Shown: positions 3,401-31,878 of the stretch, one piece after another
Layout: each line of letters opens with the position of its first letter
Numbering within the stretch: position 1 is the stretch's first letter
Assembly (NCBI GenBank): GCA_938030705.1
Contig: CALHIR010000001.1
Coordinates: forward strand, 1-64,000
DNA: 64,000 bases
Direction of reading: 5' to 3'
From: Candidatus Poseidoniaceae archaeon
GTDB lineage: Archaea; Thermoplasmatota; Poseidoniia; Poseidoniales; Poseidoniaceae
The notes under the pieces: model-generated
Seen by the model: only the letters and a program-made list of their open reading frames with translations
What the model was told of the DNA's origin: nothing
The model's database searches: none
Made by a program: the position numbers and the translations under genes

Positions 3401-3808
3401 ATTGCCCGTTTGCATGTAGCTCAGATGAATATCAACTTCATTGAAGTGGTCCGTGTGGTTTGGGTGGTAGGTGACGCTCGATGTGTTGGTTTGAAACGAG
3501 GTGCTTCCATAATCAATGATTGAGCCGTTCGCGTCGTCGATCAGACCCCACGACACCATGTAGGAGTTGTTCCAAATACCGCAATACGTGTCGAGGTAGA
3601 CCGAAACGGTGTCCAGGTTGTTCCATGTTGGTTGGTACGCCTCCACTTCAAACGAGACGTTGGAAGCGTTTGTTCCACAATCAACGGTGCCACCCGAAAA
3701 ATGTGGTGCAGTGGATTCCTCAAGCGCAGAAGGTATCGTGGGTGCAAGGGCATTGGCCAAGGTAGAGAGGACCAACAAGAGGGCGAGCGTTAAGGCGCGG
3801 CTGTTCAT
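410..3808 (-). CDS. Giant secreted surface protein with tandem beta domains, TSP3-type calcium repeats and C-terminal anchor
   Basis: This 1132-residue protein starts with a clear signal peptide (NSRAL followed by a leucine-rich core ending in ANALA). The ectodomain is very rich in Asn-X-Ser/Thr sites, as expected for an N-glycosylated archaeal surface protein. The middle holds two near-identical units of about 122 residues separated by GGGGNQ linkers. Near the C-terminus are two thrombospondin-type-3-like calcium motifs (DTDGDGVFDQDDLCPN and DSDGDGVLDADDLCPN), then an Ig-like segment. The last 30 residues are GGLLPSVGTLGTLLAIAIG followed by VGLTRRQDN: one membrane helix and a basic tail, similar in layout to an archaeosortase-type sorting signal but without a motif I can name. 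Role in adhesion, particle binding or the cell envelope is inferred. No enzyme domain was seen. Confidence 0.85.
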   Translation of the reverse strand: MNSRALTLALLLVLSTLANALAPTIPSALEESTAPHFSGGTVDCGTNASNVSFEVEAYQPTWNNLDTVSVYLDTYCGIWNNSYMVSWGLIDDANGSIIDYGSTSFQTNTSSVTYHPNHTDHFNEVDIHLSYMQTGNYSVFGHFSVWMNNSWSFLANVSNTFEVNSTMTTTACGYNNTLVSMETDVSSNYYFEGTSMYPWSDIECAMMNTPYTYTWELYNHNTSNITHSGFQNFTATWQNVNMFYDGSGFFYDIYPQIHSLSEGIYTFSTMLSLSNGTYVDHSNLSVQVWANTTGGGGNQSSGPSCAVYAWSDYYAYYVGDNFTGEVDSYCSLTNETLMIEWSILNTDTNTTVDAGNISWTSTMYSETQNVSSSAIANQNAGNYSFEVILSWYNSSSTMWEMLDSDNDAFSVLNGSSGGGGNQSTGPQCSVYAWSSVYVYDEGENFTGEVDSYCSLTNETMTVYWFITNTDTNMTVDSGNITWTNTQFSTTHNVTSTALATQSPGNYSFDVTMGWVNASYWETLDTDDDPFFIWNGSTGGGGNQSGNQTDIDGVVMASTTESNYASGDTVSWFIESSELVMGEDYHIEWAVVEVMTNTTMATGNASWTAYNNMSGEQGNLSGLSDGTYCLDASLYQQVDTYAYWVDYDYACFNVGNNSSGNHSDAFYDLDFDYDITQIDNDTIGLSYTVNNSGNWSGNFYYQAYLLPGNLLINQVYGNVSINGMGVYSDSTTFDIMGLTDGAEVCVEMMFVDTNGNTEAEGEDCLVISIDDDTNGTETTQLNCSELDQSGIDGDILIFNVSTYYDEEDTVLAYIDVCWTPTNVSMWYTVSLNHTLTGTVVEEWSAQGAGNFPSWWYATEHDEGHVTFPMDQHYGVAGAWDLQVSSLPYSGEYCFNAELKVFDTTYGAFFFVNEDGPVCFDVVLNTGGNTTVDTDGDGVFDQDDLCPNTTAGVVVDEDGCEVTTAPTDSDGDGVLDADDLCPNTPAGTTVDATGCEESDPVDPVNTAPEVDNVSITPLLPEIGDVLTCSYSASDAENDALTATIVWMVNETLIQAGSNTLSIGFAVGNTVSCVVTVNDGSVSSSPSTATTVILPEGTNDVIEDATEGGLLPSVGTLGTLLAIAIGVGLTRRQDN
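2199..2561 (-). repeat. Tandem protein repeat unit 2 in the surface protein
   Basis: The second copy, about 121 codons, with CSVYAW, FTGEVDSYCSLTNET and GNYSFDV in the same order as unit 1. It ends at a third GGGGNQ linker near 2188. The identity over the cysteine-containing block suggests a recent duplication or gene conversion between the copies. Confidence 0.8.
2562..2930 (-). repeat. Tandem protein repeat unit 1 in the surface protein
   Basis: A unit of about 123 codons opening with the GGGGNQ linker and containing CAVYAW, FTGEVDSYCSLTNET, a second NTDTN segment and GNYSFEV. It aligns almost residue for residue with the next unit (2199-2561). It looks like an intragenic duplication of one beta-sandwich domain with two conserved cysteines. 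Confidence 0.8.
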
Positions 3809-3817
3809 GCGCTTTCC

Positions 3818-5599
3818 TCAATCAGAAGAGATATAAAATAACCTCAAGATGTTTCGAAGTTCTTCTGTGAGGGTGATCTCCGCGCTTTCAAGCCAACTCT
3901 CAACACTGAAAGGATGGCCTCTTGAAAGCCGTTTGGCACGCTCGCCGACCAAGGCCCACGCCGACTTTTTGCCGATGCCCGGAATCGCTTCGAGTTGCTT
4001 TTCCGAGACGGTCATCGGGTCAAGGCCCACCTCGACACCGGTGATGGAGCGGGCCCCGTGGCCGGTGATCATCACGCTGGACTGGGTCTCGAGCGGAATC
4101 TTGTATTCCACGCCAACAAGAATGGGGTAGGCCCCGATTTGCCGACCAAAGGTGATGCCGGCTTTGCCGTAGACCTCCGGGCGTCGGTGAAGGTCGGTCT
4201 CGTGCACGGGCAGGCGGGTTCGCCCGTCGTGAGATTCCCAATGGACGTCATGGATGATTTGGCCCAGCGGGAACAATTCCTCAAGGAGGGGCTTGTCAAT
4301 TTCATCCCGGCATGCCGTTTTGAACGAAGCAAAAGCCTCGGCCGGGACCTCTTGGAAGCCTTCACCTTCCACTTGACGAATGTTGATTCGGCGCAGTAAC
4401 AAGCCTTCGCTGCGTATGTCCCGAAGCAACGCCATGTTCATGCCATAACTGGCTTCGGTCTCGCCGTTGAGTCCGGCAATGAAGTTCAATCCAGGCAGTA
4501 ATTTGGGAAGGCCTCGCTCACCTCGAACACGGCCGTGCTTGTTGATGAGGCGAATGGCCGTCTTAAGTTGGCCGGGGTCGCAGTTCAACCAGTTCGCTTC
4601 GTGGACACTGGGGTCAGCCGACTCAAGACCAAAGGACAGCACGGCGCCGTCGGAGAGCGTTTCGACGAGCGTTTTGGTGATGGCTTCGGCCGGTTCAAGG
4701 TTCTCTGCGATGATGGACGGGTTGCCGTTATCGGTGTGGAGAATGCCGAGGCGTTCGTCCTCACGAAGGCCATGAAGAAGTTTCGCGATGGGTTCTGGAT
4801 TTGGAACCGGGTATTCCAACTCACGAACGCCTTCGGCCATGTAGGTGTAGGTGTCGGTCATGCCTCCAAGACGAACGTGATGGACACCGGCGTCATGGGC
4901 GATGCGCACTTCTTCGATAATATCCTCCGGTGTTCGCCAAATCGGGACGCCTTTCTTGGGCTCAATGCAGAATTTACAGCCCCGCTTGTACCGCACGCAG
5001 CCCTGGTAAACTTCCACTTCGTAGGTCAGCGGCCCGGCCTGCGTTTCGCTGCCAAGATCGGGATGTTGGGTGACCGCCTTGCTCCCAGCACCGGCTTGCG
5101 CCCAAGCCGTCCACTGTTCGGCGGTCCGGCGCTGATGTTTCCATTCCCCTTTTTCGAGGAAGTGGTGCAGCGTTGCGTCCGTGTCTTGAACGGCCAGGAA
5201 GAGGTTAGGTCGGAGCGGCGTCCAACCTTGCTGCTTCCATCCCCGAATGGCCCAGCCGCCGAATAGCGCAGGAGTTCCTTGCGGTAGACTCCGGATGAGG
5301 TGTTGGGTTTCTTTGAGTGAAATCGGCGTGCCTCGAAGGTATTTTCCGGGAACAACGGCCCCTGCGATGCACACCACGCCAAGGCAGTGCTTGAGTTGCT
5401 GTTCAATGAATTCGGGGTTGGTTTTGAGGGTCTGACGGTAGCGGTCGACGGTCATGTAATCGTAGGCCTCACCGCTCGCCTCGAGCACGCCACAGGCATA
5501 GCGGATGTGGAAGCCGACGTAGGGTGGAACACCAAAGGCGGCAGGTTCGTCTTCGTAGCCGTCCAAGACCAACCAGCGTGGCTCGGACGATTCAACCAT
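3818..5599 (-). CDS. Radical SAM protein with C-terminal helix-hairpin-helix (COG1031-like)
   Basis: A 593-residue cytoplasmic radical SAM enzyme. The cluster-binding segment GCVRYKRGCKFCIEPKKG, around residues 200-217, carries three cysteines with spacing C-x6-C-x2-C rather than the usual C-x3-C-x2-C; this agrees with the archaeal family described as radical SAM with C-terminal HhH. Later radical SAM elements include HHVRLGGM and LSFGLESAD. The C-terminal part has a helix-hairpin-helix signature, LEAIPGIGKKSAWALVGERA, near residues 535-555, which suggests nucleic acid contact. Substrate and product are unknown for this family; RNA or DNA modification is a guess from the HhH. It lies 25 bases downstream of the Csl4 gene on the same strand, so a link with RNA metabolism is possible. 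Confidence 0.82.
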   Translation of the reverse strand: MVESSEPRWLVLDGYEDEPAAFGVPPYVGFHIRYACGVLEASGEAYDYMTVDRYRQTLKTNPEFIEQQLKHCLGVVCIAGAVVPGKYLRGTPISLKETQHLIRSLPQGTPALFGGWAIRGWKQQGWTPLRPNLFLAVQDTDATLHHFLEKGEWKHQRRTAEQWTAWAQAGAGSKAVTQHPDLGSETQAGPLTYEVEVYQGCVRYKRGCKFCIEPKKGVPIWRTPEDIIEEVRIAHDAGVHHVRLGGMTDTYTYMAEGVRELEYPVPNPEPIAKLLHGLREDERLGILHTDNGNPSIIAENLEPAEAITKTLVETLSDGAVLSFGLESADPSVHEANWLNCDPGQLKTAIRLINKHGRVRGERGLPKLLPGLNFIAGLNGETEASYGMNMALLRDIRSEGLLLRRINIRQVEGEGFQEVPAEAFASFKTACRDEIDKPLLEELFPLGQIIHDVHWESHDGRTRLPVHETDLHRRPEVYGKAGITFGRQIGAYPILVGVEYKIPLETQSSVMITGHGARSITGVEVGLDPMTVSEKQLEAIPGIGKKSAWALVGERAKRLSRGHPFSVESWLESAEITLTEELRNILRLFYISSD

Positions 5600-5624
5600 A
5601 CCTCAAGGGGCAGGGGTGCCGCCT

Positions 5625-7058
5625 TCAATCCTTCTTTGGGCGGGGGCGTCGCTTGCGCTTCTTTCCGCCTTCACCTTCTTCTCGAAGGGCTTGGAGTTCT
5701 CGTGAGGATTTTCCGTCGCTATCGCCACCACGGCTTCCGCCACGGTTGCCATCACGGCCACCGCCTTTGCCACCCTTGGCTTTGGCAATGTCGACCTTGA
5801 TTTTGCGGCCTTCCACCTCGCTGTTGTTGAGGGCCTCCACCACGGCGTCGCCTTTGTCTTTCTCAGCGATGAAGACGAATCCAAAGCCCTTGGCTTTGCC
5901 GCCGGGTCCGGTGGCGAGGATGACTTCGTTGACCGTGGCGTGGGCAGCGACCATGGCCTTGAGTTGGTCTTGCGTGGCCGTGAACGGGAGGTTACCGATG
6001 TAGATCTTGAGGCCCTCGGGATCTTTTCGCTCCTTCTTAGCGCCATTCTTCTTGTCGTCATCCGCATCACGCACGCCAATGCGTCGTCCGTTGATTCGGT
6101 GGCCGTCAAGGGCTTTGATGGCCGCATCGGCCATGGCTTTCTCAGCGTAGGTGACGAAGCCGAAGCCTCGGTTCACGCCGGCGTCGTCGGTCAAGACAAC
6201 GCAATCGGTCATGTCGCCGTGCGACTTGAACAGTTCGCTGAGTTCATCGGTACCAACGTCACGAGGAAGGCCACCCACGAAGAGTCGGGTGCCAGGAGCG
6301 GCTCGTTGGCGTCCACCGCCTCGGCCTCCGCTCTGTCCCTCGAATCGGAAGTAGGTACGCTCTCGTCCGTCTTCACGAACGTCGGCGGCGATGAAGGTGG
6401 CTCGACCCGCAGGGCCTTTGGCGAACATGGCTTCTGCCGCCCCGCCCCAGCGCTTGCCGGCATTGTTCAAGGCGCTTGCACCTTGGTCGAGTTCGGCCCA
6501 ACCGGCGCCGAAATTGTCGGCGAGGGCCCGGTAACCTTGGTAGCCACATGTCGGGCACTTTACGTTCCAGTCGCCGTCGAGCTCGGCTTGGAGGGTGTCG
6601 CCACAAGGCGGGCAGATGGCGTGGAGGACGCCGCAATCGTTTCGCTCTCGGAAGTCGAGGCGAACGACCGGCTCAACTTCCTTGACGACGGCACGACAGA
6701 CGTCCCGTCGGCGGAGCGCATCGGAGGTCTGGTGCATGAATCGGTCAACCAGTCCGGTGACGAAGAATTGACCGTAGAGGTGCTGGGGTTGGATGGAACC
6801 GGTTTTGCCTTCAACGGCGAGGATCATCGCTTCACCGTTCTTCTCGTTGAGTTTGACCACTTCGCACAAGACCGTGTCGCCCACAACGGGTTCCACAATT
6901 GGTTTGGAGGGGGCGACCGAGATGGCGTCGCCGTCAACATGAACATAACCAACCACGGTGGAGATGATGTTGCCGTCGGCAAGGGTTGTTCCTTCACCGT
7001 GTTCGTGTTCGCCCTCTTTGGCGATGATGCTTCCTGGGGTGACGAGGCTCGCCGTCAT
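5625..7058 (-). CDS. Exosome subunit Csl4 fused to two RRM RNA-binding domains
   Basis: About 477 residues. The first 190 match archaeal Csl4, the RNA-binding cap of the 3'-5' exosome: an N-terminal beta segment (VTPGSIIAKEG), an S1-like domain (GDTVLCEVVKLNEKNGEAM to RDVCRAVVKEV) and a zinc ribbon with CPPCG and CPTCG. After a variable region come two complete RRM folds. RRM1 has RNP2 LFVGGL and RNP1 RGFGFVTY; RRM2 has IYIGNL and KGFGFVFI. The tail is a Gly/Arg/Lys-rich disordered segment ending KKRKRRPRPKKD. Archaeal Csl4 normally stops after the zinc ribbon at about 180-200 residues, so this is roughly 2.5 times the usual length. The start is taken at ATG 7058; ATG 7067 three codons upstream is an alternative. 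The fusion should widen the RNA specificity of exosome recruitment, which is an inference. Confidence 0.88.
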   Translation of the reverse strand: MTASLVTPGSIIAKEGEHEHGEGTTLADGNIISTVVGYVHVDGDAISVAPSKPIVEPVVGDTVLCEVVKLNEKNGEAMILAVEGKTGSIQPQHLYGQFFVTGLVDRFMHQTSDALRRRDVCRAVVKEVEPVVRLDFRERNDCGVLHAICPPCGDTLQAELDGDWNVKCPTCGYQGYRALADNFGAGWAELDQGASALNNAGKRWGGAAEAMFAKGPAGRATFIAADVREDGRERTYFRFEGQSGGRGGGRQRAAPGTRLFVGGLPRDVGTDELSELFKSHGDMTDCVVLTDDAGVNRGFGFVTYAEKAMADAAIKALDGHRINGRRIGVRDADDDKKNGAKKERKDPEGLKIYIGNLPFTATQDQLKAMVAAHATVNEVILATGPGGKAKGFGFVFIAEKDKGDAVVEALNNSEVEGRKIKVDIAKAKGGKGGGRDGNRGGSRGGDSDGKSSRELQALREEGEGGKKRKRRPRPKKD

Positions 7059-7154
7059 GATTCTCATTCCTTTCGCAGATATGGCCCGAGATGGGTCGCA
7101 CACCGTTCGCTGAATTGAGGCGAGGGTTCCTTCCTTTTGAACCCCCCATATGGT

Positions 7155-7808
7155 TCAATCATCGTTTTCAGCGGGGAGGCGAGCGTCGCCGTGGCGGAAA
7201 AATCGCCAGCACTTCACGTCCGTTCCGCCTTGACGTTGACCGTGATGTGCGTATGTAGGCGGAAGACGAAACGTGGTTCGTAACACGACTTCGCCCGCCC
7301 AATCCGATGCGTTGGCCATCGCTTCGAGGTGAACGGCGTTGTCGCTATGGAGCACGTGGATGGCGCTGGCTTCCGAGGCAAACCCAGCCTCCAAAAACGG
7401 ACGGTCAGCTTTCGCTCGCTGAACGCCCCACGGCGGATTCATGACGATGATGTCCGGGCGGTCAAGGCTGAACTCATCGGCGCCGATATGGGCTTTCCTT
7501 ATGCTCGCACGTTGGGCCAATTCGTCGTCAAGTCCGTTGATGTTCTGCTGAAGGACTTCCGCAGCGTCCTCATCGGTTTCCACGAACACGACGTTTTCTG
7601 CGCCCAGCATCAGGGCAGCGATACCGAGGATACCGTTTCCTGCTCCGAGGTCGGCCACACGGCGCCCTTCTAACCCGTCGAGTTGGTCCACGGCGAGCAT
7701 CCAATAAGCCGCAAGGTCGCCTTCTGTAGCGTATTGCTCAAGCGTGACGTCTGCACATGGATGGGGAATGAGTTTTGACAGGGCCATCGCCAAGTGCTTC
7801 GGGCGCAC
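7155..7808 (-). CDS. METTL5-like RNA adenine-N6 methyltransferase (COG2263 family)
   Basis: A 217-residue Rossmann-fold methyltransferase. It opens with KHLAMALSKLIPHPCADVTL and LEQYATEG, closely matching the N-terminus of METTL5 and its archaeal relatives. The SAM-binding motif I is VADLGAGNGILGIAA and the catalytic motif is NPPW, of the (N/D)PP(Y/F/W) class that methylates exocyclic amines. METTL5 makes m6A in the small-subunit rRNA in eukaryotes; an equivalent rRNA target here is inferred. The start is GTG at 7808, five bases after the stop of the zinc-ribbon gene (7814-8008), so the two are probably co-translated. An internal ATG at 7787 would cut into the conserved N-terminus and is less likely. 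Confidence 0.85.
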   Translation of the reverse strand: MRPKHLAMALSKLIPHPCADVTLEQYATEGDLAAYWMLAVDQLDGLEGRRVADLGAGNGILGIAALMLGAENVVFVETDEDAAEVLQQNINGLDDELAQRASIRKAHIGADEFSLDRPDIIVMNPPWGVQRAKADRPFLEAGFASEASAIHVLHSDNAVHLEAMANASDWAGEVVLRTTFRLPPTYAHHGQRQGGTDVKCWRFFRHGDARLPAENDD

Positions 7809-7813
7809 TCACT

Positions 7814-8008
7814 TCACCAACGGCGTTGTTGGTAGGGGTTGCCCTGTGGGGGTTGTTGCGATTGCATTTGCAAGCGCATGCTGTGAATTTGTTGAGCCTC
7901 GATCCGTAGACGTTGCAACAGTTGTTCACCGGGCTGCTGGTTGCCGCAGAAACGACAAAATCGGGTGCCATCAGGGTGTTGTTGGCCGCAATTGATGCAG
8001 AATCCCAT
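7814..8008 (-). CDS. Small zinc-ribbon protein
   Basis: A 64-residue protein beginning GFCINCGQQHPDGTRFCRFCG: two CxxC pairs separated by 11 residues, a standard zinc-ribbon. The rest is a Gln-rich helical tail (ARG/GLN/PRO-rich, ending NPYQQRRW). It sits immediately upstream of the METTL5-like gene with a gap of five bases and the same strand. METTL5 in eukaryotes needs the small zinc-finger-like partner TRMT112, which raises the idea of a partner role here, but the sequence does not resemble TRMT112 and this remains a guess. Confidence 0.7.
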   Translation of the reverse strand: MGFCINCGQQHPDGTRFCRFCGNQQPGEQLLQRLRIEAQQIHSMRLQMQSQQPPQGNPYQQRRW

Positions 8009-18366: not shown

Positions 18367-18455
18367 GATGCGGGGAAGGGTCAACCAAGCAAGAACCCTC
18401 CTGTTTTTGTCCTGTGGGACATCAACTCAAAAGAGATGGAGGTAGAGGGGCGTGC

Positions 18456-19502
18456 ATGGGCTTCGCCATGTCGCTGTTCAACACGACGGAGTGGTTGGTT
18501 CTGTCGTTGTGGTTCGTCGCCGTCATTGCGCCCATCGTTTACGCCGTGCGCACTCGCACCTCCTTGGCCATGGGCATCACCGTTGCGGTCTTGTTGGGCG
18601 CGGTGGTCCAAGTCTTCTGGGCCATGCTTGACAACTGGGGCATGGTTGAATACTGGGTCTGGAGCGATTTTGTGCTCGTTCCCGTTCGTAGTTTTGAGCC
18701 CGCTTTCCTTCACACGTTGGCTACGGCAGGTTTTCTTCACAGCCAAGGCGACATGATGCATGTCTTGGGCAACGTCATCATTCTGGCACTGGTGGGGGTT
18801 CCCTTGGAACAACGTCTTGGCGCTAAGCGTTTTGCCGCCGTGTACGTCATCGGCCTGCTTGGCGGATCGCTGGGCTGGGTCGCGTTCAATGCCGACTCCT
18901 TCACGCCGGCTTTGGGAGCCTCAGGAGCAGCCTTTGGTCTGCTTGGGGCGTATCTCGCTGGATGGCCAAAAGACGAGATTCCATTTCCGCTCTTGTTGAT
19001 TCGTCCGTGGCCGGTCGTGTTCATTGCCTTGCTGTATTTCGGACTGGAACTCATTCGGGCCTTGGCCACGATGGATTCGGGAGTCTCCAGCGGCATCGCT
19101 CACATGGCGCACATCGGAGGCTTCGTCGCCGCCTACGCCCTGCTGCCCTTGGTGGCCAAAGGCGGACCTGTTGAACTCGGGGTGGTGGACGGAGGTCCAA
19201 GTCAAGGTGACGCTCACGCCGCCAAGCGACGCCGTATGAAGGCCAACATGGCTGACTTGAAGGCCATTGACGACCCTTGGACCGCCCGGGGCCTTGACGT
19301 CCCCAAGCATCTTCGTGAACCGCTCAAAAACTTGGTTCAAGCCAGCGACGAGCCCGAAACAAGGGCGGCGTGGATGGAGCACCTTGCCGATGCAGGTCGT
19401 TGCCCAGAATGTGACGCACCGTTGGGTTTGGTCGAGCGAAGTTCGGGGCCACATTTGCAATGTTCCTCCACCGCTGAACACCTCGAATGGCCACCTCGTT
19501 AA
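18456..19502 (+). CDS. Rhomboid family intramembrane serine protease with C-terminal zinc-ribbon-like tail
   Basis: About 348 residues. The rhomboid core is complete: HVLGN in the second helix, the catalytic serine in GASGAAFGLLGAYLAGW, and the catalytic histidine in AHMAHIGGFVAAY. It cleaves membrane proteins within their transmembrane segment; substrates are unknown, but single-pass surface proteins are abundant next door. After the core is a cytosolic tail of about 110 residues ending in CPECDAPLGLVERSSGPHLQC, half of a zinc-ribbon. ATG 18456 follows a purine-rich GGAGGTAGAGGGG stretch. The gene is divergent from the Ccm genes and followed by the giant subtilase, so two proteases lie side by side. 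Confidence 0.87.
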   Translation: MGFAMSLFNTTEWLVLSLWFVAVIAPIVYAVRTRTSLAMGITVAVLLGAVVQVFWAMLDNWGMVEYWVWSDFVLVPVRSFEPAFLHTLATAGFLHSQGDMMHVLGNVIILALVGVPLEQRLGAKRFAAVYVIGLLGGSLGWVAFNADSFTPALGASGAAFGLLGAYLAGWPKDEIPFPLLLIRPWPVVFIALLYFGLELIRALATMDSGVSSGIAHMAHIGGFVAAYALLPLVAKGGPVELGVVDGGPSQGDAHAAKRRRMKANMADLKAIDDPWTARGLDVPKHLREPLKNLVQASDEPETRAAWMEHLADAGRCPECDAPLGLVERSSGPHLQCSSTAEHLEWPPR

Positions 19503-19586: not shown

Positions 19587-22500
19587 ATGATGCGGGGTCA
19601 ACAACGGGCATCCTTGCGCACGGGTGCCGTTCTCTTTGCTCTCTTGATGCTCTTCGCAGATATCAGCGGCGGCGTGCTCTCCAACGCAACACACACGTCG
19701 GAAAGAAAGGAGTTCGAAGCACCGATTCTCATCGACGGTCTCCCTCCGCTGATGTGCGGCGAAGACCTGTGTGAACGCCCGACACGACTGATTGACCGAG
19801 GCGACCGAGCTTCTTCAGAACCCGACCAGTGGTGGCTTGCCTACGGGCCCGATTTGGATTGGAACGGCATGGACGACCGCCTTCAACGGGTACTGGACGG
19901 CCAAGAATCCATCTCACCCACCGCCATCATCGGCCCAGACGGCCGAAAAACCGTGGCCATTGTCGTCGACTACGCCTGGGCACCAAACGATGAGGAAGTG
20001 AACGAACTTCGAACGGTCCTCAACCATCACGGATGGGTGGGAGAAAACGGAGGCGCTTGGTTCCAAGTCATGAACGCCATCGACTCGGTGGTGGTTGACA
20101 AAGTCCCCGTCAGCGCTCTCATGGACCTTTACACTCTCGAGGGTGTGGTCGTCATTGAAATGCAGAACGTCATGATACCCTTCAACGGCGTGGCCAGCGA
20201 AGCCGCTCGCGCCATGCCTTCGGATGTCTATTCGGCGAGCACGTACGCCCGGGGCTACAACGGCGAGGGCGTCGTCATCGCTGTCCTCGATACCGGTGTT
20301 GACAACGAACATCGGGCGCTCAATGATTTCGATGATATTGACGACGAGCCGGAAAGCGACGCAACGAGTTACACCGACCAAAAATGGGTCGCTGGTTTCG
20401 ACGCAACTTCCTCGGCCGCCAATCCTGATGGAAGCGTTGACCCCGACGACGGCCAAGGGCACGGAACCCACGTCGCCGCAACAGCGCTTGGTACTGGCGG
20501 TGCTGGTCGAGTTCACACCGGGAGCGGCATGGGGGCTTACCTGGTTGACATCAAGGTCCTCACCGACTCGGGCGGCACCAATTCTCAAGCCTCGCTCAAC
20601 GGCATCCAGTGGATGATCAACAACAAAGACACCGACTGGGGCAACAACGAATCCAGCCGTGGCATCGACATCGGCTCGATGTCGTTTGGTTCGCTGAGCA
20701 GTCCGCTCAACCCTGACGACGAGGGCGACAACGGTTCGGGCGCAGAAGCACGCTTGGTCAATGATGCACGTGATGCGGGTATCGTCTGCATCGTCGCGAT
20801 GGGCAACGATGGCAGCAAGCGTGTTCCGTCGCCTGCCAGCGCCGACGGGGCCATTTCCATCGGGGCCGTCAACGACCGAAACTCGGTGAACCGCACCGAC
20901 GACATCGTGGCTTCTTACTCCAATTACGGTCCTCGCTTGGACGACGGGGACGACAACGAGTGGGAGGAGCTGAAGCCGGACTTGACTTCGTACGGCACCG
21001 GCATCACCTCGGCCTCAGCAGCGACCGGGCCGTCGTTCCCCGGTCAACCTGAGCGCCCGCTGGCCGACAACGAATACGAGTCTAAAGACGGAACGAGCAT
21101 GGCGACGCCTCTGGTGTCGGGTATCGTGGCCTCGTTGCTTCAAGCCGACGACACGCTTTCTCCAGAAGATATTCGTAACATTCTCCGCAATTCATCGGAG
21201 GCACGAGGTTCGGCTTCAGAACCGGATGTGTCAAATCGTTGGAACGAGAAGTGGGGTTTTGGCCTTGTTGACGCCTCGTGTGCCCTCGACCATGTCCTCG
21301 GCCGGGCATGCACGCCTTTGGAAGATAACGGCGGGGTGATCGTGAATCCTCCGCCCGGTGGTGATGGCCTCGGTGAAGATGTATCAATGACAGCACCTGT
21401 CAACCAGACGTTGCACCTGGCCGGCAACATTCTCTCGGTTGAGGGCACCACTGACCTCAGCGAACATTCTTACATCGAGGTTCAAGTGAAATTTGAACAA
21501 TTTTACGACGACGGAGAAAGCACCGAACTGACCAACTGGCTGGGAGCCGACGGCACGATTGAAGACTGGTACTTTGACATCACGGTGGACGATGATTGGG
21601 TCGATGCTGATGAAGCCTATACCCTGGTGTACGCTCGTGCTCTCAACGAGGACGGCGAAGCTTCCGTGGTCGATGTCCGCATCGTTCGTTTTGCTCGCAT
21701 GTCGGTTTCCGTTTCAGAACCTCCGCTTGGAACCGCTTTGGTTGGACTCGTTGAATTCTCTGGAACGGCCGAAGGCATTGAGCATGACCGTATTGAATAC
21801 AAGGTCGACAGTCAAGATTGGCAACTCGGCGATACCCTCAACCAAGACGGCGAAGGCGTTCAAGATTGGTCCCTCACCTGGGATTCCACCGAGGTGGACG
21901 ATGGCTCCCACCGAATCAGTGTGCGGATGGTCAACGCATCGGGCGTGGTCAGCGATGTGCTGAAGCGAACCTACGAAGTCGACAACCTGCCTGCAGCTCC
22001 CGACTTTGCCTTCACGGGAACCGTGGGCGTGTACGACGGGGGCCTTCCGGTCAATACCGCCGTCGCCGGTACCGTTCTCGAAGTTCGTTTTGGCCTTCGA
22101 AACATTGGCGATCTGGACGCCAACGAAGTCTACCTTACGTTGGACGGACCGGGTTCTGACTCGACCACCTACCCGTCCGAGGGCAAAGTGACCTCACTCG
22201 AACAAGGCGAAAGTGTCCAAGTTACCCTTTACTGGTGGGCCACGGAAGCCGGCACACACGACGTGACATTATCCCTTGACCCAACCAACCAATACGAAGA
22301 CCCTGACCGCACCGATAACGATTACACCTTCAGTTTCACCATCGAGGAGCGACCGGTTGAACCCATGCTTCGTTTCCTCCCCGGTGCTGCTCGCACCACA
22401 CCCGATGTGCCGGTGCCCGGTACGCCCTACGACCTTCGCCTTCGCGTCGACAATCTGGGGCAAACCGATGCGAGCGGTCTTAACCTTGGCCTGGAACGTT

Positions 22501-24479
22501 GGATTGAGGAAGTTGGATGGCAACGAATTGATGATCAATCCGTAGCCTTGGTCCCTGGTTCAAGCACGACCTCCGGCTATGCCTTCGCCCGATTTGCAGA
22601 TGTCCATGATTCGGCAGGGGCCGTCTCCTATCGTGCTGTACTGAGCGGTTCAGGTGTTGAAATCGAGCACAAGGAACTCCGATTCAACGTCACCATCGCC
22701 AACGTCCAAGCCGGTTCTAAAGTAGGCATTTCGCTCTCGACAGGCGAGGTCGCCATCGATTTCGTCGGTTTGAAGGACGGGGGGCTCCTCTTCACGACCA
22801 TTGACGGAGAACTCCATGCTCGAACCATCACCTCAACCCTCGCCATGGTCGGTGGCGTGGTTCTCGAAGAAAATTGGGGCGGTGAATTGGCCGTCTATCA
22901 GCGAGACGATGGATTGGTGCAGGTTGCGTGGGCACGTCGCTCAATGAGTGTCGAAGGCTACATCCTGACCGACATCGCCATGACGTCCATCTCCGCCGCT
23001 GGAAAAACGACACCGAAGCACTACCACATGCCCGCTCTCAAACTCTCAGAGGGTTCCTATTACGGCTTCAACTTCGATCAATACGACGGCACCATGGTTC
23101 TTGCAGGCTACCATCGAGACCTTTCCACCAGTGGTTCCTGGCAAGACATCACCTCGCTCTTTGTCATCTCGTCCACCTCCCCGGACAGAGGGAATTCTTG
23201 GAGCAGCCCGCTCACCGTTCTCTCTGATATTGATATTCGTCCCGGTGATGCTCAACCGCTCGCGGTTGGTCTTGGTGAGGAATACCTTCACCTGATTTAC
23301 CAAGAATACAGAGACGATGTCTCGGGCATCGAGCGTGTTGGGCTCATGTACACGCACGGCGCTTACACCTCCTCCTCTTGGAGTTTCCAATACTCCATTG
23401 GTGACGATGCGAAACACCCTGCCATCGAAGTGCTCGTTGAGGATGATGAAGACCGTCTCATCGTGGCATGGGCCGAAGGCCAAGGCAAGGTCTCAAACGT
23501 CGTGGTAGCGAACACCAATGCGCTTTGGTCGGGCGATGACGTTCAACGCATCCTCGCTCCTGGCGTCTCAACGCTTGGCTTTGCCTCTCGCGACGAGGGA
23601 GTTTACCTCTACCACGACGAAATCAACATTTACGGCCCCGTTCATCGAATGGGACTTGTCGCTGATAGCGACGGTGAAACGCTGCAAGGCATGTCAAACA
23701 TGCTCGACGATGGCTACTTGTACGGCATTGCCGTGATGAAAGAAGACACCATCATCTGTTCCATCACGCCCGGTGGCTCCCTAAGTTTGAGCAAGGTGGC
23801 TTCCCTCCAAGGCTCCAACAACCCGGTCGAATCCCCCGGTCTTTTGGAAACGCTTCTTGATTACCTCCCCGGTGGTTCAAACGAGGTGAAATACCGAATC
23901 CTCGCTGCCAGCATGGTTCTTTTGGTCCTCTTCTTGGGTGCCGTCGTTGTTATGGTTCGTCGCTCCCACAGCGAAGTGGAAGAACTGCTCGAGGAAATGG
24001 CCGAGGAAGGTGAGGTTGTGGAGATCATGATCATGCCCGAACATGACGCAGGCCCGTTGCTTTCCATCGATGATGACGCCGAGGAACTCACGGTCCAAGA
24101 AAGCCAACTCTCGGTGGTCAAAGAGGATGAAGAGGAAACGTTGGCCGAAGAACTTGAACGTAAACTCGAGGACGGGGGGGGCAATGCTCGCCTTGAACGG
24201 CGAATGAAGCGAAAGCAGCAGCGGGAAATGGAGGCTATTTTGCAAAAAGGTCTCCCTCCTCTGCCCACGCCGGAACTTCCCCTGCCCATTCCAAACCTTC
24301 CAATGCCCGATGCCCTCCCACCGCTGGAGGGGAACGCTCCCCTTCCGACGCCGTCGTTGCCTCTGCCCGACTTGAAGCGCGAAGTATCATGCCCTTCATG
24401 CAAGGCCAGCTTTGGTGTGAAAGACTTGATGCTGAAGCGTATTTCCTGCCCGGTGTGCGCCAACAGTTTCGACTTGTGA
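19587..24479 (+). CDS. Giant membrane-anchored subtilisin-like protease with cytosolic zinc ribbon
   Basis: About 1630 residues. A signal peptide follows the start (TGAVLFALLMLFADISGG); a GAGAGGTGA stretch precedes ATG 19587, with ATG 19590 equally possible. After a propeptide-like region comes a peptidase S8 domain with catalytic Asp near 235 (VIAVLDTGVD), His near 292 (GHGTHVAA) and Ser near 504 (DGTSMATPLVSG). Then follow Ig-like and CARDB-like beta domains (for example LRNIGDLDANEVYL) and a long beta-propeller-like region. One membrane helix (AASMVLLVLFLGAVVVMV) precedes an acidic coiled segment, Leu-Pro-x-Pro repeats, and a final zinc ribbon with CPSCKASFG and CPVCANSF. It should digest extracellular protein at the cell surface; a zinc ribbon on the inside of a surface protease is unusual. 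Confidence 0.88.
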   Translation: MMRGQQRASLRTGAVLFALLMLFADISGGVLSNATHTSERKEFEAPILIDGLPPLMCGEDLCERPTRLIDRGDRASSEPDQWWLAYGPDLDWNGMDDRLQRVLDGQESISPTAIIGPDGRKTVAIVVDYAWAPNDEEVNELRTVLNHHGWVGENGGAWFQVMNAIDSVVVDKVPVSALMDLYTLEGVVVIEMQNVMIPFNGVASEAARAMPSDVYSASTYARGYNGEGVVIAVLDTGVDNEHRALNDFDDIDDEPESDATSYTDQKWVAGFDATSSAANPDGSVDPDDGQGHGTHVAATALGTGGAGRVHTGSGMGAYLVDIKVLTDSGGTNSQASLNGIQWMINNKDTDWGNNESSRGIDIGSMSFGSLSSPLNPDDEGDNGSGAEARLVNDARDAGIVCIVAMGNDGSKRVPSPASADGAISIGAVNDRNSVNRTDDIVASYSNYGPRLDDGDDNEWEELKPDLTSYGTGITSASAATGPSFPGQPERPLADNEYESKDGTSMATPLVSGIVASLLQADDTLSPEDIRNILRNSSEARGSASEPDVSNRWNEKWGFGLVDASCALDHVLGRACTPLEDNGGVIVNPPPGGDGLGEDVSMTAPVNQTLHLAGNILSVEGTTDLSEHSYIEVQVKFEQFYDDGESTELTNWLGADGTIEDWYFDITVDDDWVDADEAYTLVYARALNEDGEASVVDVRIVRFARMSVSVSEPPLGTALVGLVEFSGTAEGIEHDRIEYKVDSQDWQLGDTLNQDGEGVQDWSLTWDSTEVDDGSHRISVRMVNASGVVSDVLKRTYEVDNLPAAPDFAFTGTVGVYDGGLPVNTAVAGTVLEVRFGLRNIGDLDANEVYLTLDGPGSDSTTYPSEGKVTSLEQGESVQVTLYWWATEAGTHDVTLSLDPTNQYEDPDRTDNDYTFSFTIEERPVEPMLRFLPGAARTTPDVPVPGTPYDLRLRVDNLGQTDASGLNLGLERWIEEVGWQRIDDQSVALVPGSSTTSGYAFARFADVHDSAGAVSYRAVLSGSGVEIEHKELRFNVTIANVQAGSKVGISLSTGEVAIDFVGLKDGGLLFTTIDGELHARTITSTLAMVGGVVLEENWGGELAVYQRDDGLVQVAWARRSMSVEGYILTDIAMTSISAAGKTTPKHYHMPALKLSEGSYYGFNFDQYDGTMVLAGYHRDLSTSGSWQDITSLFVISSTSPDRGNSWSSPLTVLSDIDIRPGDAQPLAVGLGEEYLHLIYQEYRDDVSGIERVGLMYTHGAYTSSSWSFQYSIGDDAKHPAIEVLVEDDEDRLIVAWAEGQGKVSNVVVANTNALWSGDDVQRILAPGVSTLGFASRDEGVYLYHDEINIYGPVHRMGLVADSDGETLQGMSNMLDDGYLYGIAVMKEDTIICSITPGGSLSLSKVASLQGSNNPVESPGLLETLLDYLPGGSNEVKYRILAASMVLLVLFLGAVVVMVRRSHSEVEELLEEMAEEGEVVEIMIMPEHDAGPLLSIDDDAEELTVQESQLSVVKEDEEETLAEELERKLEDGGGNARLERRMKRKQQREMEAILQKGLPPLPTPELPLPIPNLPMPDALPPLEGNAPLPTPSLPLPDLKREVSCPSCKASFGVKDLMLKRISCPVCANSFDL
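24388..24473 (+). other. Cytosolic zinc ribbon at the end of the subtilase
   Basis: Encodes CPSCKASFG, then 12-15 residues, then CPVCANSFDL, a two-CxxC zinc ribbon. It sits beyond the membrane helix of the protease, so by topology it is inside the cell. Confidence 0.8.
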
Positions 24480-24488
24480 AGTGATGAG

Positions 24489-26312
24489 ATGTGTGGCATT
24501 TTCGGATATATTGGGCATCAGCATGCCCTTCCCATTTTGGTTGAAGGGCTACGACGATTGGAATACCGAGGTTATGATTCCACTGGCGTCGCAATCGATG
24601 ACGGCTCCCATGTTCAAACGCACAAAACGGTGGGCAAAGTGGCCGATCTGAAAGCCATCCTACCCGAGACCGTGAGTGGAACCCGAGGGATCGCTCACAC
24701 TCGCTGGGCCACCCACGGGGGTGTCACCCAAGGGAACACCCATCCCCACGCTTCAACCGACGGAGCCATTCACCTTGTCCACAACGGCATCATCGAAAAT
24801 TATCAACATCTCCGTAGAGGCCTTTCGGCACGAGGTGTGGATTGCGTCAGTGAGACCGATTCTGAAGTCCTCGTCCAGATGATGGCGCTGGAATTACAAG
24901 GCGGTGCAACACCTCTTGAATCCGTTCAAAATACCCTTCAACACCTTCGCGGGACGTGGGGGCTTTGCATCCTCTTCCGAGATCATGACCTGTTGATCTG
25001 TGCCCGAAATGGTTCTCCTCTCATCATCGGTCAGGGTCAAAACGAGACCTTTGTTTCAAGCGACCCTCATCCCTTGACGGCTCACACCCAGCGAGTGGTT
25101 TACCTCGATGACGGAGACGTCGTGGTCATCAACCGTGAGTCTTTCCAAATCAAGACGACCAAAGGGCTTCCTGTCGAACCCAGCATCACGGTGCTTGAGG
25201 ATGCATGGGGAGAAGCGGAACTCGGCGATGCACCGCATTACATGTACAAAGAAATCTACGAACAACCCGATGCATTGCGTCAGTGCATCGGGGGCCGGGT
25301 TGACCGAGAAATGGGTACGGGGCGGCTGGGAGGAATGGGTCTCGATCACCAAACCCTCGTTCAAGCGGCTCACATTCACTTGCTGGGGTGTGGCACGGCT
25401 GCTTTTGCTGCAGAAATTGGCCAGATGTTGATCGAGAAAATGGGGCGCATACCTGCGACAACCCACATCTCAAGCGAGTTCCGAAACAACGACCCGGTCA
25501 TCAATCCAAAATCCCTCTATCTCGCTGTGTCTCAATCGGGTGAAACCGCTGACACCATCTCTGCGCTCAAGGAAATCAAGCTCAAGGGCGGACAGGTCTT
25601 CGGTGTCGTCAACGTCGTGGGTTCCACCGTGGCCCGTTTGTGCGGGCGAGGCGTCTACATCCACTCGGGTCCTGAACAGTCCGTGGCTTCAACCAAGGCC
25701 TTCACCAACATGGTGGCGGCCTTGACGGTTTTTGCAACGCAGCTTGGCCGCACTCGGCATCTTTCCAAGGCCGACGGTCGCAACTTGATTCGCCACCTCC
25801 AACAAGCACCGCACTTGATGGAGACCTACTTCGAGGACATCGGGCCCATTCACGAAGCCGTGGACCTCCTGTGCGAGGCCGACTCCGTTCTCTTCCTCGG
25901 GCGCGGTCTTTCAGCACCGGTGGCCAAAGAAGGGGCGCTCAAATTGATGGAATTGGCTTATATTCCCTGTTTGGCCTACCCTGCGGGTGAAATGAAACAC
26001 GGCCCCATCGCGTTGCTTGAAGAGGGCAGTCCGGTCGTGGTGGTTGCCCCCAATGACCATCTCAAGGAGAAGACCATGTCGGCCCTGCATGAATGCAAGG
26101 CACGTGGTGCGAAAATCATCTTGATTCACGAAAAGGGCGACCCTATTGGTGCCGAGGGCGATGTCTCCATCGCCGTTCCAGCCATTCATCCTTGGTTGAC
26201 CCCACTGCTCACGGTCCTCCCGCTGCAGTTGATGGCCTACGAGACAGCCTTGAAACTTGGTCGAGACGTTGACCGGCCTCGGAACCTTGCGAAATCGGTC
26301 ACGGTTGAGTGA
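24489..26312 (+). CDS. glmS: Glutamine-fructose-6-phosphate aminotransferase (isomerising)
   Basis: A 607-residue enzyme that makes glucosamine-6-phosphate from fructose-6-phosphate and glutamine, the entry to amino-sugar synthesis. The N-terminal nucleophile Cys2 lies in CGIFGYIGHQHALPILVEGL, and RGYDSTGVA, HTRWATHG and HNGIIEN complete the glutaminase domain. The C-terminal half has two SIS domains (GCGTAAFAAEIG, SQSGETADTISAL, LGRGLSAPVAKEGALKLMEL). Length equals that of typical GlmS. It starts nine bases after the subtilase stop and converges on the KaiC-like gene. It is the first step toward the amino sugars expected in the glycans of the local surface proteins. Confidence 0.95.
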   Translation: MCGIFGYIGHQHALPILVEGLRRLEYRGYDSTGVAIDDGSHVQTHKTVGKVADLKAILPETVSGTRGIAHTRWATHGGVTQGNTHPHASTDGAIHLVHNGIIENYQHLRRGLSARGVDCVSETDSEVLVQMMALELQGGATPLESVQNTLQHLRGTWGLCILFRDHDLLICARNGSPLIIGQGQNETFVSSDPHPLTAHTQRVVYLDDGDVVVINRESFQIKTTKGLPVEPSITVLEDAWGEAELGDAPHYMYKEIYEQPDALRQCIGGRVDREMGTGRLGGMGLDHQTLVQAAHIHLLGCGTAAFAAEIGQMLIEKMGRIPATTHISSEFRNNDPVINPKSLYLAVSQSGETADTISALKEIKLKGGQVFGVVNVVGSTVARLCGRGVYIHSGPEQSVASTKAFTNMVAALTVFATQLGRTRHLSKADGRNLIRHLQQAPHLMETYFEDIGPIHEAVDLLCEADSVLFLGRGLSAPVAKEGALKLMELAYIPCLAYPAGEMKHGPIALLEEGSPVVVVAPNDHLKEKTMSALHECKARGAKIILIHEKGDPIGAEGDVSIAVPAIHPWLTPLLTVLPLQLMAYETALKLGRDVDRPRNLAKSVTVE

Positions 26313-28290: not shown

Positions 28291-31200
28291 TCAGAAGTCA
28301 AGGTCGTCGAGCAACGACTGTAACTCTGAGGATGCAGGGGTGGGTGGAGTTTGTGAAACTATGGGTTGAACAGGGGCCGGAGCGGGTTGGTTTGCGGCCA
28401 ACCATTGCTCTCCGTAGTAATTCCATTGCTCAATGGTCCATCCCAAAGGCAGACCGGTGGCGGGAAGCGGAGGGCCGGTGTTGACCGTTTGAATCGCTTC
28501 CACGGGTGCAGCAACGGCGGGGGCCGCAGGCTGGGTTGCCTGAACGGGGGCTGCAGGCTGTGAACTTGGCAACGGGGCCATGTCTTTGGGTGCGGCGGTG
28601 AACTGACTTTGTTCGAACATACCGAAATCTTCGGACGAGCCTGCACCTTGGCGTGTGAACAGCAGGAAGAGGACGAGGCCGGCGATGATGATGCCAAGCA
28701 GAGCGATGATCACAGCCGTGGTGGTGCCGACGGTGCTCGTAATGCTTTGGAGGATGCCTTCCGCTGGTGCTTCGGCGACCAATACAGTGATTTCGGTTTG
28801 GGTTGATTCGCCGTCGTCATCGGTCACGGTCAAGGTAAACGTCCAGGTCCCTGCTGGCATATCTTCTACGGTCCAGGTCGGTCCTGTGAAGTCCACGTCT
28901 CCGGTCTTTTGCCCGTCGAGGTCAGTATCAAGGTGGGAGCTGTCCCACTCGTAAACCAAGTTCTCCTTGTCGCTGACCGTTTCAACGCTGTCTGTTCCAG
29001 AGAGCGTCACGTTGTCACCTTCGGTCAGTCCATCAAGCACCGAAATTTCAGAAATAACGGCGGTGGGCGGGATGTTCAACACGCTGACGTTCATGCTCTG
29101 CTGAGCCGTTGCACCGTCGTCATCGGTGACGGTGACCGTGAGCATGCGCACGCCCCGCGTGGTCCACGACGGAGCGATGTTGGTACCCGTGAGTTCGCAA
29201 TCGTTGTCGTCAATGCCGTCTCCGCTGACATCGATCTTGGCGTCCAAATCCCAACAGACCTCAAGTGTGGCCATGTCCGATGCGGTGTCAGAGGCTACCA
29301 CGGTCAGATTCAGAAGGTCGTTTTCAAACACGGGAGTATTTCCCGGTAGGCCCGTGACGCTTGGAGGTACGTTGTGAATCATCACCGTCGCTTGTTGGAT
29401 GTCGGACGATGCGCCATCGGCGTCAATGGCCCGAACCTGAACGGTATGCATGCCCGAACTGTTCCATGCGACCGCTTCTGACGAGGAGATGCCGATGCTG
29501 GAGATGGTCCAGTTCTCGTCTTGGAGTGAGGGGTGCCACTCGATGATGACCGTGCCCACATCGTTGGCGGTATCGACGGCGGTCGCTCGTAAGAGTGCAA
29601 CTTCATCCTCGTTCAAGTGCCAAGTTCCATTTTCGTCGGGCATGACCTCTTGGCCGCCCTTCAACAGCGATGGTGCAGAAAGGGTGGGCGCCACGTTGAG
29701 CACCATCACTTCACTGGTGAGCGTGACGGTCGCACCGTCATCGTCGGTCGCGACGGCGGTGATGTTCAGCGGGCCTTCAAAGAGGGGAGTGAAGGTGCAC
29801 GTGGGTTGGGTTGTGCCTTCATCGCAATCCAGCCCTGGCCAGGAGATGCTGACTTGCTGACCCGACGGCGAAGACGTATCGATGTCCTCGATATCGGTGG
29901 CTTGGACGGTGATGGGCGATTCGACCTCCACCGATTCGGGGTGGGTCAGGTTGAAGGTCGGCGCTCGATTCAACACCACCACATCAACCATCATTTCGTC
30001 CGTATCCAATTCTTCGTCGATGACAAGAACCTTCACGCTCCACGAGCCGCTGTTTGACCAGTTCCACTGGGTCCAACAATCGGGCGCCTCAATGACGTCA
30101 ATGAGGCCCGCCCGTGATTCAATTTCAAAGCGACAATCCACCTCGCCACCGTCGATGTCGAAACTTTGGGTGGCGTTGAGTGTGATGTTTTCGAAGGTGT
30201 ATTTCCCTTCATCCACCACGAGGGACGCATTGGGTGCACGGCCGATAAAGACGGAAATGGAAGCGTCGTTGTTACTGCGGTTGGCATCGGCCGTCACGTT
30301 TTCGTCGGGGTCGACTGAGAAGGTGAGTTCTGCCGTCCCAATTTGCATATCGGCCGGTACCGACCAATCGATCAGCACGCGTTCCTCTGCGTAGGGGGCG
30401 ATGGCGGGGAGGGCGCTCCTATCGATCAAACCGTCTGGTGTTTCAACTTCCATGAAGGTGGAAGGTGCGGTCAGGACGCCTCGGTTTTGGGCGGGTAAGG
30501 AGAAACTGAGTATGTCGCCGGGCAGGGCATTGTAGCCAATGGAGGCGCCCAGTGTGGACGTGTCTCCGTTTCTGGTTCGCTCCACGATGACCGAGCTGGC
30601 TTGGGCCACGAGGTCAACACCAACAACGCTGAGGTCTTGAACGACCGTGGTCGCACCGACGACGTCTCCGACCGGGTCGTAAACTACGATGCCGTTGCTG
30701 GTATAATCGTCGCTTGCGGGTGTATCGTCCACTTCGTCAGAGACATTGAGTGGAACTTGAGCCTGCCCGTTGTTGTCCGTGGTGGGGTTGATGATGGTGC
30801 CTGCAATTTCGTAACGAAGCTGGAGGTTGGTGTTCTTGAGAGGGATGCTCGGAGAGCCGGCTACGCTGTACTCGATGGAAACTTGTTCAACGGCGTTTGG
30901 CAAGGTCGCTAAGGTCGCGGTACTGACGTGAATTTGCGTGTTGCGTCCACCGGGGGAAGACGATGAGACGACGCTGTTGGAATCTGCAGGGTCGTAGGTT
31001 TTCAACAACCAATCAATGGTAAATCCTGCAGGGTTGATGATGCGATTCCATGCGCTGCCCCGGACGGCAGGACAATACCAATTGAATCCTAAGTTCACGC
31101 CGGTGGCGTTCCACTCCGAAATTTTGTAGGCATCATCACATCCCGTGTATTGCGGGGTAATGCCGTCCTCGGAAGGGGCTTCGTTCTTGACCACCTGCCA

Positions 31201-31878
31201 AGAGTTGTTTTCATCCTCTTGGGAATCAAATTCAGACGGGTCAAAATAATCTGAGGTGCCGCTGACCTCGGTTTCGGCTTCGAATTCCATGTACCACTGA
31301 TCGCCGGTTCGCAGCGGGAAGTCATGACGTTCCTTGGCCGGTGTGTAGGTGTTGTCAAAGGTGACAATGCCGAGGGTTTGTTCAAGAAATCCAAGGTTGA
31401 ACGGGCGAAAGCGAACATCCAGTGTGAAATCGCTGGTGATGGTCGCAAGGTCCCGTGCACGCAGGACGTCGATGCCGTCGTAGTCAATGTTGAGGCGACC
31501 GGTGACCCCCTCCAAGGTTGCACCGCTGTTGCCGGAGGTAAAACTCCCGCTGATCTCAATCTCGTAGGCCAATACTGTGTCCCCGTTGTTATCGGTTTCG
31601 TAAAAGATGTCGGTGACTTCGTTGACCGTATCGCCCGTCAACGTGTTGAGTGAAGCCGAAACGTTGGCTTGGGCAAGCAATTGAGCCACGTCGAATTTTG
31701 TCTCATACACCCACTCATCGCCAACGCGATGGGTGGGAACATCGACCACGCCGTTGGTTCCTTGCGTGCGTTCGGTCGGCGCCTGTTCTTCGAGGGTTGA
31801 AGATTCCACGAAGCCGAGGCCCATGGAGAAGACAAAGAGAGCGACCAGAAAGGCGGCTTGGCACTCACGCCCGAGCAT
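28291..31878 (-). CDS. Giant PKD-domain surface protein A with cytosolic Trp-rich motif
   Basis: This 1195-residue protein has a signal peptide (AAFLVALFVFSMGLGFVES). An N-terminal domain beginning VPTHRVGDEWVYETKFDV and running for about 330 residues is shared with the next gene upstream. Then come beta-sandwich domains and at least four PKD-like units with SVLNIPP or VLNVAP boundaries and VTDDDG turns. Asn-X-Ser/Thr sites are frequent. A single membrane helix (TTTAVIIALLGIIIAGLVLFLL) near residue 1050 is followed by an Ala/Pro/Gln-rich cytosolic tail containing LPLGWTIEQWNYYGEQWL. The tail ends in a short acidic helix (LQSLLDDLDF). No enzyme signature was found; binding to particles, polymers or neighbours is inferred from PKD domains. 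Confidence 0.85.
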   Translation of the reverse strand: MLGRECQAAFLVALFVFSMGLGFVESSTLEEQAPTERTQGTNGVVDVPTHRVGDEWVYETKFDVAQLLAQANVSASLNTLTGDTVNEVTDIFYETDNNGDTVLAYEIEISGSFTSGNSGATLEGVTGRLNIDYDGIDVLRARDLATITSDFTLDVRFRPFNLGFLEQTLGIVTFDNTYTPAKERHDFPLRTGDQWYMEFEAETEVSGTSDYFDPSEFDSQEDENNSWQVVKNEAPSEDGITPQYTGCDDAYKISEWNATGVNLGFNWYCPAVRGSAWNRIINPAGFTIDWLLKTYDPADSNSVVSSSSPGGRNTQIHVSTATLATLPNAVEQVSIEYSVAGSPSIPLKNTNLQLRYEIAGTIINPTTDNNGQAQVPLNVSDEVDDTPASDDYTSNGIVVYDPVGDVVGATTVVQDLSVVGVDLVAQASSVIVERTRNGDTSTLGASIGYNALPGDILSFSLPAQNRGVLTAPSTFMEVETPDGLIDRSALPAIAPYAEERVLIDWSVPADMQIGTAELTFSVDPDENVTADANRSNNDASISVFIGRAPNASLVVDEGKYTFENITLNATQSFDIDGGEVDCRFEIESRAGLIDVIEAPDCWTQWNWSNSGSWSVKVLVIDEELDTDEMMVDVVVLNRAPTFNLTHPESVEVESPITVQATDIEDIDTSSPSGQQVSISWPGLDCDEGTTQPTCTFTPLFEGPLNITAVATDDDGATVTLTSEVMVLNVAPTLSAPSLLKGGQEVMPDENGTWHLNEDEVALLRATAVDTANDVGTVIIEWHPSLQDENWTISSIGISSSEAVAWNSSGMHTVQVRAIDADGASSDIQQATVMIHNVPPSVTGLPGNTPVFENDLLNLTVVASDTASDMATLEVCWDLDAKIDVSGDGIDDNDCELTGTNIAPSWTTRGVRMLTVTVTDDDGATAQQSMNVSVLNIPPTAVISEISVLDGLTEGDNVTLSGTDSVETVSDKENLVYEWDSSHLDTDLDGQKTGDVDFTGPTWTVEDMPAGTWTFTLTVTDDDGESTQTEITVLVAEAPAEGILQSITSTVGTTTAVIIALLGIIIAGLVLFLLFTRQGAGSSEDFGMFEQSQFTAAPKDMAPLPSSQPAAPVQATQPAAPAVAAPVEAIQTVNTGPPLPATGLPLGWTIEQWNYYGEQWLAANQPAPAPVQPIVSQTPPTPASSELQSLLDDLDF
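28399..28452 (-). other. Cytosolic Trp-rich tail motif (copy 1)
   Basis: Encodes LPLGWTIEQWNYYGEQWL in the cytosolic tail of surface protein A, beyond its only membrane helix. It matches the motif at 31945-31998 at 11 of 18 positions with no gap, in a tail that is otherwise low complexity. Confidence 0.8.

Follow-up and report, generated by a model that had tools for sequence, protein, structure and literature searches.

Genes and features of the locus

The window, i.e. the whole stretch of 64,000 nucleotides that was analyzed, belongs to a Marine Group II archaeon (Poseidoniales); Poseidonia and further marine archaea of the Poseidoniales are its named relatives. A subtilase gene with a rhomboid gene directly upstream on the same strand occupies the region of interest; the features, all on the plus strand, are the following.

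18414..19502, +, rhomboid intramembrane serine protease, 362 aa, with a C-terminal C-x2-C-x16-C-x5-H ribbon (PF01694, alignment, model)
19587..24479, +, surface subtilase (S8), predicted to be membrane-anchored, 1630 aa (ORF translation, Pfam, orthologue matches)
19587..19685, +, signal peptide region, residues 1-33, hydrophobic core 13-31 (hydropathy)
20262..21263, +, Peptidase S8 catalytic domain; triad motifs DTGVD (from 235), GHGTHVA (from 291) and GTSMA (from 502)
22047..22328, +, CARDB domain, residues 821-914 (Pfam, E = 8.4e-11)
22671..23813, +, beta-rich segment before the membrane helix, residues ~1029-1409 (confident strands in the model)
23898..23954, +, transmembrane helix, residues 1438-1456, followed by RR (hydropathy, alignment, structure model)
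24189..24212, +, RxxRRxxR motif, residues 1535-1542, in a predicted helix (alignment, structure model)
24252..24374, +, variable Leu/Pro-rich disordered linker, residues ~1556-1596 (alignment, structure model)
24390..24476, +, four-Cys ribbon, predicted to be cytosolic, C1602, C1605, C1621 and C1624 (alignment, stop-ended ORFs, structure model)
24489..26312, +, gene directly downstream of the subtilase, which we take to be glmS-like from its sequence, without a database assignment

Residues 226-559 of the subtilase match PF00082 (E = 1e-42; 146.9 bits against a cut-off of 21.8) and the Asp, His and Ser of the triad are present in all 96 aligned orthologues, which places the protein in family S8; NCBIfam returned distant S8 models only, and a Pfam match to Big_7 stayed below threshold. 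An in-frame GTG at 19527 is a possible alternative start, but the better orthologue matches begin at about residues 1-16. Hydropathy detects exactly two hydrophobic segments (13-31 and 1438-1456). An AlphaFold2 model of residues 580-1630, built with 55 orthologues that share 24-76% identity with the window protein in this part, has a mean pLDDT of 83.3, a confident beta-rich ectodomain and a long helix at ~1432-1471. The segment at ~1029-1409 may, judging from the model, be a beta-propeller; Foldseek matches of the whole-chain ectodomain model were too unspecific for naming any fold. These features suggest a type I topology (N-out, C-in) with the single C-terminal membrane helix as the anchor and ~170 predicted cytosolic residues behind it. 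Thus, the signal peptide, intact triad, beta-rich ectodomain and single late helix of the original prediction are borne out by hydropathy, the alignment and the model, and the reading of the helix as a membrane anchor agrees with hydropathy, the model and the RR that follows.

The rhomboid (E = 1.3e-23; 84.2 bits against a cut-off of 22.6) is the single PF01694 match in this genome, and most genomes of the class likewise have one match. The catalytic-type residues H116, N120, S170 (the GASG serine) and H230 (the catalytic His) are each found at a frequency of 1.00 in 95 aligned rows. The AlphaFold2 model (mean pLDDT 89.5) consists of GlpG-like helices and a C-terminal two-strand unit, and its top structural matches are GlpG (best E = 1.4e-3). 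The C-terminal domain, which reads DExETRxAW...CPxC-x16-C-x5-H-x2-WP in the window protein, is nearly invariant, with C330, C333 and C350 at 1.00 and H356 at 0.97 of the 95 rows; replacement of the His by Cys, seen in 5 of 108 loci, is what a metal ligand would be expected to show. This ribbon, like that of the subtilase, is expected to lie on the cytosolic side. An NCBIfam scan of the rhomboid at E up to 1 did not return the rhombosortase model.

Conservation of the predicted cytosolic tail

The subtilase ends in a CxxC-x15-CxxC pattern. All four Cys and the Pro of the second pair are invariant among the 96 aligned full-length orthologues, in a tail that otherwise changes fast. This alignment took in only ORFs of at least 1500 aa that are free of X and have a matched ribbon, so by itself it cannot reveal ribbon loss, which counts of stop-ended ORFs can. 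Among such ORFs, 76 of 79 from Poseidoniaceae and 39 of 39 from a second family of the order (115 of 118 in total) have the ribbon, and the three misses are an N-gap (L038) and two broken reading frames (L041, L072), i.e. there is no genuine ribbon loss in these relatives. In the model, the ribbon region is a compact four-strand unit (~1598-1629, pLDDT ~79-88) within a tail that is largely below pLDDT 50-60. The predicted two-CxxC ribbon at the end of the tail is thus confirmed. A chance pair of CxxC motifs was rejected on the basis of the Cys invariance across orthologues. With its invariant Cys pairs and four short strands in the model, the unit is a zinc ribbon in the structural sense, and it probably binds zinc. 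Like Zn_ribbon_4 (PF13717), it has two CxxC pairs with similar spacing, but the match at residues 1600-1628 scores 15.2 bits in the whole protein and 22.9 bits with the tail alone, below the curated gathering cut-off of 30.3, and membership was rejected.

Between the membrane helix and the ribbon, R1535, R1538, R1539 and R1542 are each retained in 0.95-0.97 of the 96 rows (91-93 of 96 per position) and fall in a modelled helix at ~1534-1553; at three loci (L227, L246, L247) the Arg motif is absent and the ribbon is kept. The Leu-Pro-x-Pro repeats named in the original prediction hold up only as a Leu/Pro-rich linker of variable composition. The alignment has gaps over much of the linker and the acidic stretches, and in 9 of the 96 orthologues the 70 residues ahead of the ribbon contain 'LP' once or not at all, the repeats being nearly absent in some lineages.

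Linkage of the rhomboid and subtilase genes in Poseidoniales

All 115 genomes of the family matched the subtilase at E 1e-20, some only through paralogous subtilases or fragments, and 165 of 194 genomes of the class matched at E 1e-90. Of the 29 unmatched, 8 listed genomes belong to the two Poseidoniales families, 12 listed genomes are Marine Group III and 9 were unlisted; accordingly, the class search at E 1e-90 found the subtilase in none of the 12 listed Marine Group III genomes.

Three duplicate loci were dropped (L096-L098, duplicates of L014, L019 and L031), as was L095, which holds the rhomboid only partly. For the analysis of gene order, at least 600 upstream bases were required, which set aside 15 of 86 Poseidoniaceae loci and 2 of 39 loci of the second family. 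The rhomboid lies just upstream of the subtilase, on the same strand, at 105 of 108 testable loci (70 of 71 in Poseidoniaceae and 35 of 37 in the second family), counted without correction for the relatedness of the loci. The pair is broken, with both genes kept and the rhomboid located elsewhere in the genome, in G007 (L043) and in genus g12 (L246, L247). One more case, found by eye and outside the 39 second-family loci, is L231, where a 1583-aa ORF with the ribbon adjoins the rhomboid. The glmS-like gene is linked to the subtilase in 69 of 75 Poseidoniaceae loci and 7 of 37 second-family loci, so that the rhomboid link outlasts it (35/37 vs. 7/37 in the second family).

A 204-kb sample of this genome contains 122 ORFs, of which 12 encode anchored secreted proteins by a hydropathy rule and 15 (~12%) have such a protein as an immediate same-strand neighbour. 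A single adjacency is therefore weak evidence, and the argument is carried by the order-wide retention and by the recurrence of the rhomboid beside three unrelated partners. Toward the outer end of the membrane helix of the subtilase, positions 1440, 1441 and 1443 hold small residues at frequencies of 0.61-0.77, which is compatible with a rhomboid site and is not diagnostic. Gly is frequent at the helix start. A search for a membrane-helix signature peculiar to rhomboid substrates found none.

Rhomboid partners in other lineages

A rhomboid profile search of the phylum at E 1e-30 matched 141 of 243 genomes, a cut-off too strict for Marine Group III, where rhomboids are present in 16 of 21 genomes examined. 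Co-distribution of the rhomboid and the subtilase across the class was accordingly rejected, given that Marine Group III has rhomboids and its listed genomes are without this subtilase. We then have two non-random samples, picked by match strength and genus: 10 loci from Marine Group III (L349-L358) and 32 from outside the class (L279-L290, L297-L316).

At all 10 Marine Group III loci, a surface protein with a C-terminal helix is encoded directly upstream of the rhomboid. These partners measure 1200-1500 aa (several are cut by the stretch taken), end in a TPSF...LRR-type anchor in 9 of 10 cases and, in the four that were scanned, gave matches of cupredoxin or MAM type; the rhomboids have terminal Cys pairs in 9 of 10 cases (not in L355). 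Outside the class, all 32 rhomboids have the C-terminal Cys/His ribbon pattern, and at 15 of the 32 loci, from other Thermoplasmatota, the gene immediately upstream, in the same orientation, encodes a protein related to LTD/PLD surface proteins whose last hydrophobic segment lies 2-10 residues before the C-terminus. Six of these proteins were scanned with Pfam, and PLD and LTD were confirmed in all six; a seventh scanned protein, from L289, is not PLD. An anchored neighbour is absent at the other 17 of these 32 loci, among them L301 with only 273 upstream bases. The partners outside Poseidoniales are without the ribbon; their chains stop within ~10 residues past the helix or have a short basic C-terminus. 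Gene order flips, the rhomboid being first in Poseidoniales and second elsewhere. Because the rhomboid adjoins different anchored secreted proteins, the partner changes and the C-terminal anchor stays.

Ribbons and other tails in surface proteins

When the genome was searched with a ribbon profile, the subtilase (E = 1.2e-21) was accompanied by few other matches. The weaker ones include an 851-aa ORF on C47, in which a membrane helix is followed by two ribbons, and an anchored surface protein of 1324 aa (G000:C1:186570-190541), whose Poseidoniaceae relatives (L319-L343) keep a C-terminal ribbon of the kind CPSC...LGVPxGSxPPFRFTCPxC. Across 30 loci of the 1324-aa family, 25 of the longest ORFs are stop-ended, with 22 pattern matches, and 5 are open at the edge; among the exceptions, L324 and L325 have CxxC...CxxC slightly further in and L337 is without it. 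In the 204-kb sample, a cytosolic end ribbon was found in 2 of the 12 anchored secreted proteins. Judged by sequence, ribbon tails thus recur among the surface proteins of these archaea. The intracellular ribbon that the original prediction regarded as unexpected does lie inside according to the predicted topology and is strongly constrained; given the comparable ribbon on another Poseidoniaceae surface protein, it is less an oddity of this protease. As this second protein has no known rhomboid link, the ribbon is not simply a rhomboid tag and, considering also the ribbonless partners elsewhere, need not concern the rhomboid.

Other tails were observed as well. The motif GWTxEQWxxYGxxWL ends several anchored surface proteins after a Pro-rich linker (window positions 28294-31878, minus strand; G000:C1:191420-194923; the L204 subtilase, 2652-7817; and the PLD proteins of L317 and L318). 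Further surface proteins have cytosolic tails with Trp-rich ends, at window positions 57998-63097 (plus strand) and in G000:C1:159308-168472 and 168454-171090. Pfam gave no convincing domain in the Trp-rich cytosolic tails; the idea that they are WW domains binding the Leu-Pro linker was dropped, Pfam detecting no WW domain there. Another subtilase of this genome (L203, 3360-8060, minus strand, a 1567-aa ORF) has a different Cys-rich cytosolic tail.

Discussion

The rhomboid neighbour, the RxxRRxxR helix and the second ribboned surface protein go beyond the original prediction, and the pairing of the two genes is the more important finding. We give an even chance to a reading, taken as a whole, whereby the subtilase is displayed on the surface and held by one C-terminal membrane helix, the rhomboid handles and probably cuts this anchor, and the ribbon, along with the RxxRRxxR helix, would serve as a cytosolic docking or retention module directed toward the ribbon of the rhomboid or a shared cytosolic partner. 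Cleavage would shed the protease from the surface or control its level, as with rhombosortase and the GlyGly-CTERM serine proteases. Control or release of the surface enzyme by its neighbour is suggested by the order-wide retention of both the cytosolic knob, which is folded and probably binds metal, and the membrane-cutting protease next to it. Against the cutting of the anchor stand the facts that adjacency does not equal cleavage, that ~12% of ORFs have such a neighbour by chance, that some pairs are unlinked and that gene order is reversed in other lineages. More tentatively, this may be one case of a Thermoplasmatota system in which a ribbon-marked rhomboid processes the anchors of lineage-specific surface proteins, namely the subtilase in Poseidoniales, where the ribbon of the target would dock the enzyme, the cupredoxin/MAM-type protein in Marine Group III and LTD/PLD proteins elsewhere.

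It is somewhat doubtful that surface proteins of Poseidoniales instead carry the ribbon as a generic plug, or as a knob that binds a scaffold, on the cytosolic side, with the rhomboid link incidental to it. The retention of a ribbon in the 1324-aa family, the two ribbons of the 851-aa ORF and the 2 of 12 ribboned proteins in the sample fit such a role, whereas the 10 of 12 sampled proteins that are without a ribbon do not, and the durable gene pair is left unexplained.

The original prediction also had the ribbon connect protease display to an intracellular protein or nucleic acid, or sense membrane state. A link to an intracellular partner is plausible, the adjacent rhomboid now being a gene-linked candidate; nothing firm was found for nucleic acid or membrane-state sensing. 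Regulated intramembrane proteolysis, in which a freed tail of ribbon and Arg helix acts on a nucleic acid or a polymerase-like target, appears improbable: the basic helix is nearly invariant and the ribbon profile weakly matches zinc-binding segments of archaeal RNA polymerase subunits and other nucleic-acid proteins (E 0.015-0.19), but these matches are short and come mostly from a few Cys, as any ribbon would give. The usual cleavage site of rhomboids lies toward the outer face of the membrane, and the stub would then stay behind in it. Equally improbable is an ordinary anchored scavenging protease in a mere cluster of surface-protein genes, with a ribbon that only stabilises the C-terminus; one study predicted extracellular S8 peptidases in every one of its Marine Group II MAGs (PMC6864105), and chance adjacency is not rare (15/122), but the pair is kept order-wide (105/108) and the partner changes in other lineages.

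The proposed processing of the subtilase anchor by the rhomboid bears on the feeding mode of these organisms, since Marine Group II archaea are described, in the available text of two studies, as abundant in surface seawater and are thought to be protein feeders (PMC6461757, PMC9723583), so that it matters whether a main surface protease is kept or shed. A folded cytosolic module under absolute constraint is, moreover, unusual on an exoenzyme. In a literature search, with preprints and most subscription papers outside its scope, no title or beginning of an abstract described the subtilase tail or the gene pair.

Comparison with known systems

The subtilase belongs to the same peptidase family, in the same organism group, as the extracellular S8 peptidases reported for Marine Group II (PMC6864105); the words 'Zinc' and 'C-terminal' are absent from the main text of that paper, and thus neither the tail nor the ribbon is described there. 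The closest parallel to the gene pair is that of rhombosortase and GlyGly-CTERM proteins (V. cholerae VesB and others; PMC3237569, PMC6219818), where, according to the available text, a rhomboid-family enzyme lies beside a single secreted target with a C-terminal helix, in some cases a serine protease, as here; one V. cholerae protein is reported there to need both rhombosortase and its own GlyGly-CTERM domain (PMC6219818). An enzyme gene beside that of a putative dedicated target is likewise found at 105 of 108 loci here. However, the targets of rhombosortase have a short basic end after the helix, as far as these texts describe them, whereas ~170 predicted cytosolic residues follow it here; both proteins of the present, archaeal pair carry ribbons, and cleavage in this pair is putative. 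The rhomboid does not belong to the rhombosortase subfamily and the subtilase, with its long ribbon tail, has no GlyGly-type motif, helix and short basic C-terminus in combination, so that membership in the rhombosortase/GlyGly-CTERM system was rejected.

Among archaeal enzymes, RhoI and RhoII of Haloferax volcanii likewise have a role at the cell surface, and the available text of the reports on them mentions neither a ribbon nor pairing with a neighbour (PMC9263693, PMC11985538). Their natural substrates are merely proposed there (PibD, Agl15), and the identification of natural substrates of archaeal rhomboids is named as future work (PMC11985538), whereas the candidate is gene-linked here. 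The durable gene pair, which recurs with three different anchored partners, thus names candidate archaeal rhomboid substrates that would, if the reading is true, be the first gene-linked ones.
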